A stretch of DNA of 29,317 nucleotides, taken from IMG/VR virus record IMGVR_UViG_3300028925_005018, positions 1 to 29,317 of that record; one strand, given 5' to 3'. This stretch comes from a virus. Numbering within the stretch: the stretch's first letter is position 1; each line of letters opens with the position of its first letter. Shown here piece after piece: positions 16,334 to 19,383 of the stretch. The notes under the pieces were generated by a model. It made no database searches. It saw nothing but the letters and a program-made list of their open reading frames with translations, and had not been told where the DNA came from. The position numbers were made by a program, and so were the translations under genes.

Positions 16334-16765
16334 TTACTTGCTCACCTCCTTGCTCTCTTTAGGTACTTCTAATTCTTTGCCGTCTTTGTCTAGATAAACA
16401 GTATTAGACTTAGCATTAATAGTGTACTCAGTAACTCGTCTTTCTACAGTCACCACCTTGTCTAATAATAAAGACATAGACTTAGTCTCTGCTTTGCTAT
16501 AAGAAACTGGGTTATATATAAATGGTTTTAATTTAGCCACTTCAGTTTCACTATTACGATACTGTTCTACATTAGTAGAGTCTTGGCAAAAGTCTATATG
16601 CTTGGAACGTGCTTTTGTCTCTACTATAACAAGCTTACCAGATTCAATAGATTTATTTAGTTCATCTATTTTATCATTCCAACCCATAGATATAAGCTGT
16701 CTCTTCATCTCTGAAAGTTCTTTATTTGTTTTTTGTAACATGATAGTATGTTTCCTTTTTTTCAT
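16334..16765 (-). CDS. Hypothetical coiled-coil/lysine-rich protein, 143 residues
   Basis: A protein of 143 residues from ATG 16765. AAAGGAG lies upstream but with a long 13-base spacing, so the start is uncertain. An ATG at 16744 is the alternative, and a 164-residue reading from 16828 would run into the palindromic repeat. It has a basic N-terminus and a helix LQKTNKELSEMKRQLISMGW. A polar beta-like C-terminal half ends in alternating Lys/Glu. It is upstream of the first terminator. Function unknown. Confidence 0.55.
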   Translation of the reverse strand: MKKRKHTIMLQKTNKELSEMKRQLISMGWNDKIDELNKSIESGKLVIVETKARSKHIDFCQDSTNVEQYRNSETEVAKLKPFIYNPVSYSKAETKSMSLLLDKVVTVERRVTEYTINAKSNTVYLDKDGKELEVPKESKEVSK

Positions 16766-17317
16766 TGTTAGTTTAATACTCCTTTCTACCACATACGCCC
16801 ATAGGTAAATAATGAGACTGAGTCTCAATACTATTAGTAAGCGTTTGGGATTTTAGGGAGTTGTTCATTACTGGATAATACATCAAATATATTTAGTATC
16901 CTAGATAAAAATAGTGCTGGTAGCGTGCGAGCGTTATGAGCGATTCTAGGCAAAATCTAGGTCGTACTCAAGCATACATTACAACGAAAAATATATATGA
17001 TGCAAGTGTTATTTTGATCTGTGATAATGAGACTCAATCTCATGTGAGCTAGGTTCTAATGATAATGAGACCTAATAACAATTGCACTTTTTTCAACCTA
17101 ATAATGAGACTCAGTATCAAATGGCGAGGGGGGGGTGTCGGGCAAACAAAGGAAAGCACACAAAGTAATGAAATTTTACATAATTTTAGAGTGTATATTC
17201 CTTTTCTATTGAAAGTAGGGTATAAGTCTTATATAGGAATAGTCTTATTTGTCCCAAATTCATAGCAAATCAGAGGTTTTTTCATTTCTTCTAGTATACA
17301 TACCAACTTACTAGTTT
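16766..17317. other. Non-coding control region with repeats and G-run
   Basis: About 550 bases hold no supported gene; the frames that open here are short and lack ribosome sites. The stretch contains four ATAATGAGAC repeats, a relatively GC-rich patch at about 16919-16970 (GCGTGCGAGCGTTATGAGCG, then CTAGG-CAAAAT-CTAGG) and eight consecutive G at 17128-17135. I see no tRNA cloverleaf. Placement between the divergent clusters fits an operator region or a replication origin. Confidence 0.6.
16809..17111 (+). repeat. Four ATAATGAGAC(T/C) repeats, three evenly spaced
   Basis: ATAATGAGACT occurs at 16809-16819, 17024-17034 and 17101-17111, and ATAATGAGACC at 17062-17072. The last three start 38 and 39 bases apart. 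Three copies extend into dyads: TGAGACT-G-AGTCTCA at 16813-16827 is perfect, ATGAGA-5-TCTCAT lies at 17027-17043, and a degraded version lies at 17104-17118. The dyad suggests a dimeric protein; the spacing suggests iterons or cooperative operators. Confidence 0.8.
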
Positions 17318-17476
17318 TTATATCAATTTGGGCGTTTTAGATTTATTCAATGTTTTTTCTTTTTTAGGATTAGGAACTGTTGTTTTTGTTTCTACCCAAT
17401 TCCTAAATATTTTTGTATAATTTTTTTCATAACTAGTACGATCTTCTACTCTACTCTTATCTCCTTTAAGACTCAT
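17318..17476 (-). CDS. First gene of the leftward transcript: 52-residue basic protein
   Basis: A protein of 52 residues starting MSLKGDKSRVEDRTSYEKNY, from ATG 17476 with AAAGGA about ten bases upstream. It is polar and lysine-rich with one aromatic helix (YEKNYTKIFRNWVE), then a flexible tail with Pro/Lys (VPNPKKEKTLNKSKTPK). It lies about 100 bases downstream of the strong leftward promoter, which supports it as the first product of that transcript. No family recognised; an early host-takeover or regulatory peptide is possible. Confidence 0.6.
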   Translation of the reverse strand: MSLKGDKSRVEDRTSYEKNYTKIFRNWVETKTTVPNPKKEKTLNKSKTPKLI

Positions 17477-17498
17477 CAGTAAAAATCCTTTCTTTTTG

Positions 17499-17555
17499 GA
17501 TATTATATATAATATCTTTTTTCTTTAGTAGTATATATAATATATATTATATATA
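17499..17555. repeat. Two perfect AT palindromes in the leftward leader
   Basis: 17499-17516 is a perfect 18-base palindrome (GATATTATATATAATATC). 17532-17555 is a perfect 24-base one built from TATATATAA, TATATA and TTATATATA. Both lie between the leftward transcription start (about 17578) and its first gene. They could fold as RNA hairpins, serve as easily melted DNA at an origin, or bind regulators. Confidence 0.75.
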
Positions 17556-17584
17556 TATAATATTCTTCTAGTCTAACTATATAC

Positions 17585-17613
17585 AATATAAGAACTATAT
17601 ATACAATTGTCAA
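17585..17613 (-). promoter_or_regulatory. Strong sigma70-type promoter, leftward (PL)
   Basis: On the minus strand TTGACA (17613-17608), exactly 17 bases, then TATATT (17590-17585). The -35 is perfect and the -10 matches five of six. Predicted start is near 17578. It faces the long minus-strand cluster and is placed back to back with the rightward promoter, the two -35 boxes being 15 bases apart. Confidence 0.8.
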
Positions 17614-17628
17614 GAAAAATAATAGTTC

Positions 17629-17657
17629 TTGTAAAAATAGAACATACAAGTTATATT
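17629..17657 (+). promoter_or_regulatory. Rightward promoter (PR) with internal dyad
   Basis: TTGTAA (17629-17634), 17 bases, TATATT (17652-17657). The predicted start is about 17664, which is the A of the next gene's ATG, so the mRNA would be leaderless. CTTGT (17628-17632) and ACAAG (17646-17650) form an inverted repeat over the -35 and spacer, a possible operator. Confidence 0.6.
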
Positions 17658-17663
17658 GAGTGT

Positions 17664-17864
17664 ATGCGAAATTATAAAAAACAAGATGCACGTACCTACT
17701 GTGCTAACTGGGATGCTGGTAATTGTCTCGGTTGTGATATGCGTAGTGATATCGGAGTCTTGATTATGTATATTGATTCTAAGAAGCATGGAAAGGAATG
17801 TACAATTGATAAAGAATGTAACTATTTTAATCGAGTTGTTGTCCCAGGGATAATTAAAGAATGA
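17664..17864 (+). CDS. Cysteine-rich small protein, 66 residues
   Basis: A protein of 66 residues from ATG 17664. The frame is open upstream to a TTG at 17607, but that lies ahead of the predicted transcription start. Cysteines at 13, 21, 24, 46 and 52 (Y-C-A-N-W-x3-N-C-L-G-C ... E-C-x5-C-N-Y-F) match a pattern common in small phage zinc proteins, with C-x2-C preceded by an Asn/Gly turn and a final C-x-Y-F before a Val-Pro end. It has no Shine-Dalgarno site, fitting a leaderless start. Its TGA overlaps the next ATG. It is the first rightward gene; regulatory or inhibitory roles are possible but unproved. Confidence 0.65.
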   Translation: MRNYKKQDARTYCANWDAGNCLGCDMRSDIGVLIMYIDSKKHGKECTIDKECNYFNRVVVPGIIKE

Positions 17865-18344: not shown

Positions 18345-18421
18345 TGAAATTGTGGAAGTTAATAGAATCTTATATTTTGAAGTTTGCTTTTTTCTTAGTT
18401 AAATTGGGAGATAAACGATGA
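18344..18421 (+). CDS. 25-residue hydrophobic mini-protein
   Basis: A frame of 25 residues with TAATG coupling to the gene before it and ATGA coupling to the exonuclease after it, so both ends fit operon packing. The sequence (MKLWKLIESYILKFAFFLVK, then a charged end) is one amphipathic to membrane-spanning helix. It carries the GGGAG site for the next gene in its last codons. It may be a true micro-protein or chiefly a translational coupler. Confidence 0.55.
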   Translation: MKLWKLIESYILKFAFFLVKLGDKR

Positions 18422-19383
18422 AATGGTCAGCAGAGGAAACAAATATAGTTAGACAGTATGAAAATACTGGTAAGAAAGCTTCTGATATTTATCAGCAGTT
18501 ATTTGCAAGTGGTTATGATCGTACCTTGAAAGCAGTTCGAAGAAAAATTGAGTCAATGCATTTAGGTAAGCCTTATAAAAACCTCGATATCAGTAACCTA
18601 CCGAAGATACTCATGTTAGATATTGAGACAACCCCTATACCAGTGTGGGCTTGGAGCTTAGGAAAGCAGTATGTACAGACTCACAGCATGATGAAAGACA
18701 GTGATGGAAAGGTTATAGACTGGTATGTCTTGAGTTGGTCGGCTAAATGGCTTTATGACGATGAAGTATTAAGTGATGTCCTAACATCAAAAGAAGCAAT
18801 AAGTAGAAATGACGAGAGAATACTAGAATCTGTTTGGAAACTTCTTGATGCAGCTGATATTATTATTGCTCATAATGGAGATAAATTTGATTTAAGAAAA
18901 CTAAAGGCAAGATTTCTTTCAAATGGTATTATGCCTCCAATGCCTTATAAAACGATAGATACATTAAAGGTTGCAAGGAAAGAGTTTGCGTTAACTTCTA
19001 ACAAGCAAGATTACATTACTAGATTGTTAGGTGTTGAAAAAAAGTTAGATACAGATTTCCAATTATGGATTGACTGTATGAATGGAGATACAGAAGCTTT
19101 AAAGAAAATGGAGAAATATAATAAGCATGATGTACTAGGTTTAGAGCAGATGTACTTAAAGCTTAGACCTTATATATCTGGACATCCTAATATAGCAGTA
19201 ATGATGGAAGAAAATGTATGTTCTTCTTGTGGTAGTGACTCATTAGACAGTGTTGGGAAGTATTACTATACTGGTTCAAGCAGATATGAGTTATATTACT
19301 GTAATGGCTGTATGTCTCCTCATATTAGAGGTAAGAACAATGTATCTGAAAAGAATATATTTATAAGGTCAACTGCTAAGTAA
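18418..19383 (+). CDS. DEDDy 3'-5' exonuclease with N-terminal Myb-like and C-terminal zinc-ribbon domains
   Basis: A protein of 321 residues. Residues 1-~52 (KWSAEETNIVRQYENTG ... RTLKAVRRKIESM) resemble a SANT/Myb-like or HTH DNA-binding helix set. The RNase H-like exonuclease follows: Exo I L-D-I-E-T (67-71; D68, E70), Exo II A-H-N-G-D-K-F-D (151-158) and Exo III Y234-N-K-H-D238. That order gives the DEDDy class. The C-terminus has a ribbon, C268-S-S-C271 and C295-N-G-C298. It probably trims DNA or RNA 3' ends. GGAG lies eight bases upstream. Its place just before the terminase genes may point to DNA processing or repair rather than polymerase proofreading. Confidence 0.85.
   Translation: MKWSAEETNIVRQYENTGKKASDIYQQLFASGYDRTLKAVRRKIESMHLGKPYKNLDISNLPKILMLDIETTPIPVWAWSLGKQYVQTHSMMKDSDGKVIDWYVLSWSAKWLYDDEVLSDVLTSKEAISRNDERILESVWKLLDAADIIIAHNGDKFDLRKLKARFLSNGIMPPMPYKTIDTLKVARKEFALTSNKQDYITRLLGVEKKLDTDFQLWIDCMNGDTEALKKMEKYNKHDVLGLEQMYLKLRPYISGHPNIAVMMEENVCSSCGSDSLDSVGKYYYTGSSRYELYYCNGCMSPHIRGKNNVSEKNIFIRSTAK

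Follow-up and report, generated by a model that had tools for sequence, protein, structure and literature searches.

The control region and its genes

The window analyzed here, a stretch of 29,317 nucleotides, is a piece of the genome of an uncultured tailed phage. Its leftward genes include those for a DnaB helicase, SSAP_Sak, a glutamine amidotransferase and a pyrimidine-dimer glycosylase, and its rightward genes those for an exonuclease, TerS, TerL, portal and capsid. The TerL and portal of the best annotated phage relatives reach just 20–26% protein identity, and the phage therefore has no cultured close relative. Since the contigs of its relatives overlap in a circular pattern and one of them, of 46.2 kb, closes on itself inside terL, where its ends overlap by 318 near-identical bp, the complete genome would be about 45 kb long. 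One further contig, IMGVR_UViG_3300030708_000851 (80,282 b; L032/L036), carries two different TerL genes about 44 kb apart (86% and 83% to the query) and is probably an assembly artefact in which two related phages were joined.

A control region of about 16,766–17,660 lies between the leftward and rightward genes, with the following features in and around it:

16334..16765, minus strand: gene C4, 143 aa, heading the long leftward block (C4 ... SSAP, DnaB)
16813..16827, minus strand (centre C on the minus strand): Fur-type box 1, perfect 15-base dyad TGAGACT-G-AGTCTCA
16929..16942, plus strand: GAGCGTTATGAGCG, a second repeated element, located between the groups of boxes
17022..17042, plus strand: Fur-type box 2, TGATAATGAGACTCAATCTCA; a pair of 7-1-7 dyads that overlap with a 6-bp shift; 17/21 to the classical Fur consensus
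17060..17080, plus strand: Fur-type box 3, TGATAATGAGACCTAATAACA; degenerate, left half alone good; 15/21 to the Fur consensus
17089..17259, plus strand: conserved non-coding block, 171 bp; TTTTTCAAC ... G-run ... CACACAAA ... ATTTGTCCCAAAT
17099..17119, plus strand: Fur-type box 4, TAATAATGAGACTCAGTATCA; 17/21 to the classical Fur consensus; within the start of the conserved block
17318..17476, minus strand: gene C3, 52 aa, small, kept in many relatives, right of the 171-bp block
17664..17864, plus strand: gene C2, 66 aa, Cys-rich, first rightward gene, followed by exonuclease, TerS, TerL, portal and capsid

The repeats lie in non-coding DNA: the gene to their left begins at 16765, and a longer open reading frame (16334–16828) spans box 1 merely by virtue of a TTG start. 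C4 evolves fast, and neither Pfam nor PHROG gave a significant match for it. Where the strand actually switches, between the small leftward genes and C2, there is an AT-rich palindromic stretch (17500–17660). By eye, the N-terminal part of the exonuclease (18418–18570) resembles a small helix-turn-helix of the GcrA/Myb kind; this part is not covered by the match in distant homologues.

The repeats have the form of Fur boxes

The first-pass annotation had described four repeats within some 300 non-coding bases, three of them 38 and 39 bases apart, and the window bears this out: ATAATGAGAC is present in four exact copies at 16809, 17024, 17062 and 17101, all on the plus strand, the last three with exactly that spacing of their starts. 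No copy occurs beyond 16809–17110 in the 29,317-b window, hence the repeat is not scattered. Among 2000 second-order Markov sequences, the 10-mer occurred 0.13 times on average, never four times and never more than once within 303 bases. The first-pass annotation refers to the repeat both as a 10-mer and as an 11-mer; the latter, ATAATGAGACT, is found in three of the four copies. ATAATGAGAC constitutes the left half of the dyad TGAGACT-N-AGTCTCA, and the repeat sits in a dyad of 15–21 bp, TGATAATGAGACTCA[A/G/T]TCTCA, with the 7-1-7 heptamer architecture of a Fur box. All seven pairs of the 7-1-7 inverted repeat are formed at 16813, where the perfect dyad that had been reported is indeed present, and six of seven at 17028 and at 17105, which correspond to one-mismatch versions of that dyad (17028–17042, TGAGACTCAATCTCA; 17105–17119, TGAGACTCAGTATCA). 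The copy at 17062 has one good half only and forms no such inverted repeat at 17066.

In the published Fur box, one 7-1-7 repeat overlaps another that is displaced by 6 (PMC7536154, PMC11353095). We compared the window with the textbook (7-1-7)2 Fur consensus TGATAATGATAATCATTATCA, a 21-bp sequence not drawn from these data. The two best sites in the whole 29-kb window are those at 17022 and 17099, each matching 17 of the 21 positions, while 0.03 sites of this quality are expected and none of 300 shuffles contained two; the site at 17060 ties for third. Box 1, about 48 bp upstream of the leftward gene C4, scores lower against this consensus (about 14/21 by hand count). It is the top window match of a position weight matrix of Neomarinimicrobiota boxes, the core of which is conditioned on the motif, and exceeds the maximum of 60 nulls. 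Across viral boxes the flanks read TTGATAATGAGACTCAnTCTCAATAAG, which is the Fur-box form of overlapping 7-1-7 repeats shifted by six. The phage boxes resemble the bacterial Fur box (E. coli/B. subtilis type, as in fur autoregulation) in their heptamer dyad, in the second dyad shifted by 6 bp, in their match to the consensus and in their placement near an operon start. They differ from it in the heptamer itself (TGAGACT versus TGATAAT) and in standing several in tandem, about 31–44 bp apart, in a virus.

The boxes are conserved and oriented in viral relatives

Conservation among close relatives, proposed earlier as a check on the repeats, was found: they retain two to six boxes in the control region, and a de novo dyad search of these relatives recovered the dyad at the same place. 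Between the window and the relatives L006 and L090, the boxes are 95–99% identical and the spacers and the rest 77–79%. Alignment showed that the box departs from a perfect palindrome in a directional manner: its centre is C and its tenth base varies (TGAGACTCA[A/G/T]TCTCA). With the centre base as the sole criterion of orientation, 79 of 85 block-side boxes (inside the conserved block or at most 180 bp away) in 28 loci with this block pointed to the plus strand, with four undecided, whereas 15 of 18 distal boxes before the leftward gene C4 in the same loci pointed to the minus strand. Tandem arrays of four to six boxes, 31–44 bp apart, are present in L158, L186, L200, L223 and L227.

An exact scan of viral sequences for the extended box returned at least 120 stretches; the matches listed fall into 38 sequence clusters and include 21 loci with the conserved block. 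Part of the matches are coding coincidences (MRLSLN in a protein), so that 120 viral matches do not equal 120 operators. The second repeated element (GAGCGTTATGAGCG in the window; motif GAGCGTTWTGAGCG) recurs close to Fur-type boxes at about 20 further viral loci (e.g., L158, L165, L186, L189, L205 and L223). In L173, L180, L187, L196, L218, L232, L254, L262 and L264, a Fur-type box is embedded in surroundings that pass from G-rich to C-rich (GGGGGGCGGTAATGAGACTCATTCTCATTTAGCGCG...CCCC), and this setting is alike in several viral contigs.

The same box precedes fur and iron genes in bacteria

The extended box has 53 matches in 85k bacterial genomes, mainly in Neomarinimicrobiota, Verrucomicrobiota and Planctomycetota. 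About 28 of them, counted by reading, adjoin iron or metal genes: fur, feoA, feoB, TonB receptors, hemin-binding proteins, heme oxygenase, bfd, piuC-like and ZnuA-like genes. Ten box neighbours were checked against Pfam, nine from the 53-match set and one FUR from a scan of Neomarinimicrobiota. That scan, of 199 genomes, yielded 49 boxes, as compared with 0 for a reversed-pattern control, and in 26 of the 30 loci examined a FUR gene lies within about 35 bp downstream of the box; for about 20 of these neighbours, the FUR identity is backed by Pfam FUR domain coordinates. The boxes beside these FUR genes mostly share the orientation and the AATAAG tail of the viral boxes, and the directional box in bacterial genomes usually points along the gene that it precedes. 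Because the pattern core was taken from viruses, only the neighbouring genes, and not the box core, represent independent evidence in these scans. A set of FUR genes picked regardless of the motif, like the consensus scan, escapes that bias, and Fur-type dyads such as TGAGACTCATTATCA and TGAGAATGATTCTCA were often found upstream of these genes.

The first-pass annotation had interpreted the repeats as cooperative sites of a dimeric phage protein in a replication origin or master operator. The dyads, the tandem array, the fixed orientation and the conservation all favor cooperative operator sites. A phage protein as the binder is unlikely, because bacterial fur and iron genes carry the same box and the phages lack a FUR gene: a profile search detected none in the phage records, with positive controls. 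Likewise, no integrase was detected in the phage records searched (controls positive) and no HTH_3 domain in 11 phage records, several of them partial, at E ≤ 0.1 (controls positive), the domain sought for the phage-encoded repressor of a lambda-type operator. C4 was considered as the binder and rejected, since L016 and L017 have the boxes in common while their C4 proteins are quite different, and C4 thus does not track the repeat type.

The best candidate for the host phylum is Neomarinimicrobiota, with Verrucomicrobiota, Planctomycetota and Nitrospirota as possible hosts. TerL relatives were not found in GTDB genomes; those in Neomarinimicrobiota metagenome-assembled genomes (MAGs) are distant (31–32% identical), with neither boxes nor block at their TerL loci.

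A conserved block lies beside differing repeat arrays

Most relatives with sequence at this position have the 171-bp block, down to 76–77% TerL identity; it may represent a promoter or an origin core. It contains T/A-tracts as well as the G-run. A structured RNA was rejected for the block: there was no Rfam match, and RNAalifold predicted no pairs on either strand in 25 sequences.

Sister lineages without Fur-type boxes have other tandem repeats to the left of the same block, among them GTATACGAAGTATAC (42–43 bp apart), CAGATTATGTATAATAGA and GTCGAAATATAAAAT. Lineages with such differing arrays are L042, L046, L051 and L055; L012–L014 and L027; L095 and L019; and L036, L038 and L054. Two of these repeats showed no enrichment in Neomarinimicrobiota. 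The blocks of L014 and L095 are almost identical and most of their genes share 95–100% identity, but their repeats and C4/C5 genes differ. In most lineages the gene on the left side of the array points leftward; in others it points rightward, and there a terminator-like sequence can precede the array (L057, L059, L075 and L078). Since unrelated repeats occupy the same place in other lineages, Fur control is not needed family-wide.

Discussion

The repeats in the central control region of the phage are probably multiple binding sites for a host-encoded FUR-family repressor (Fur). Fur binding, repression, the promoters and the host phylum are what we infer from sequence. When the phage genome enters an iron-replete host, resident Fur-Fe(II) dimers would bind the boxes. 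The minus-oriented box or boxes would lie over the region where the leftward operon (C4 ... SSAP, DnaB) starts, and the plus-oriented tandem array over the start of a rightward transcript that originates within or at the 171-bp block. By analogy with the direction of bacterial boxes, box 1 may thus serve the leftward operon from C4, and boxes 2–4 a rightward transcript. Both transcripts would remain repressed until iron became scarce, or until Fur was overcome or titrated by replicating phage DNA, and early expression would therefore be coupled to the iron status of the host. Against this model, the genes immediately to the right of the block in the window point leftward, other lineages have unrelated repeats at this place, and the TerL relatives in Neomarinimicrobiota MAGs are distant and have no boxes.

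Iterons of a replication origin, with the block as the origin core and the lineage-specific repeats as sites of a phage initiator, are an unlikely alternative, although a conserved non-coding block that lacks structure, contains a G-run and adjoins direct repeats would suit an origin, and repeats that vary by lineage recall initiator/iteron pairs. The GC-skew minimum lies within about 0.1–0.75 kb of the block in six contigs; however, GC skew follows gene strand, and the minimum of the window, at 16800, coincides with the change of gene strand. Moreover, the repeat matches boxes before bacterial fur and iron genes, a DnaB helicase is present but no initiator homologue was recognised among the phage genes, and the gene beside the array does not follow the repeat type, as seen in L016 and L017.

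About equally unlikely is a decoy array, in which the boxes would titrate host Fur as phage DNA multiplies and so derepress iron uptake for virion production, without regulating phage genes. The tight clustering of two to six boxes in non-coding DNA of each genome, at a fixed spacing of about 31–44 bp, and their identity with the boxes at host fur and iron genes are compatible with titration. A pure decoy, however, needs neither a fixed orientation relative to the block and C4 nor a place upstream of an operon start, and a handful of boxes in each genome would titrate no more than a fraction of a protein that is abundant.

A packaging site (cos or pac) with TerS-binding repeats, suggested by the G-run and by three contigs that begin 51–61 bases into the block, is very improbable: most contigs cross the site, contig ends are scattered rather than fixed, the 46-kb contig closes on itself inside terL, and the repeats are identical to Fur-type boxes. 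Promoters of a phage single-subunit RNA polymerase can be dismissed almost entirely, for although GACTCA[G/C]TAT resembles the T7 promoter and the elements are directional, 20 bp long, repeated and non-coding, they show strong dyad symmetry and identity with bacterial Fur-type boxes, and PF00940 had no match in 15 relatives (a weak point, as the control set gave none either).

Host Fur sites in this position would have partial parallels in known systems. CTXphi and GIL01 are LexA-controlled phages, and they likewise use a host repressor as the phage's own switch, but they respond to SOS rather than iron, through another repressor family and another box. Lambda oR/oL and iteron origins have, like this locus, cooperative dyad sites arranged in tandem within a divergent control region, whereas the binder here is most likely host-encoded and none was found in the phage. 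For Fur itself, the parallel is the stx1 promoter of Shiga-toxin prophages, where host Fur represses a phage-borne gene (PMC8065619). That system has a host Fur site on a phage genome and repression by iron, as predicted here, but the site belongs to a toxin promoter that is independent of phage induction (PMC8065619), while the present phage has several boxes in a central control region, beside an early operon, and no recognised integrase. In the openly available full-text literature, this single Fur site was the only phage precedent found.

A broader proposal, which we advance tentatively and consider possible rather than probable, is that these phages form an iron-gated family. A tandem array of host Fur boxes would be the main switch of an uncultured marine-type clade, and related lineages would have swapped the array for sites of other regulators, so that the host signal changes and the rest of the control region is kept. 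Iron limits much of ocean life. If a widespread phage clade does sense host iron through host Fur at its central control region, iron status would bear directly on how an infection turns out, and the box would be a marker that ties uncultured phages to bacteria. Lineages whose arrays differ while the block stays almost the same offer a natural experiment in regulatory rewiring.
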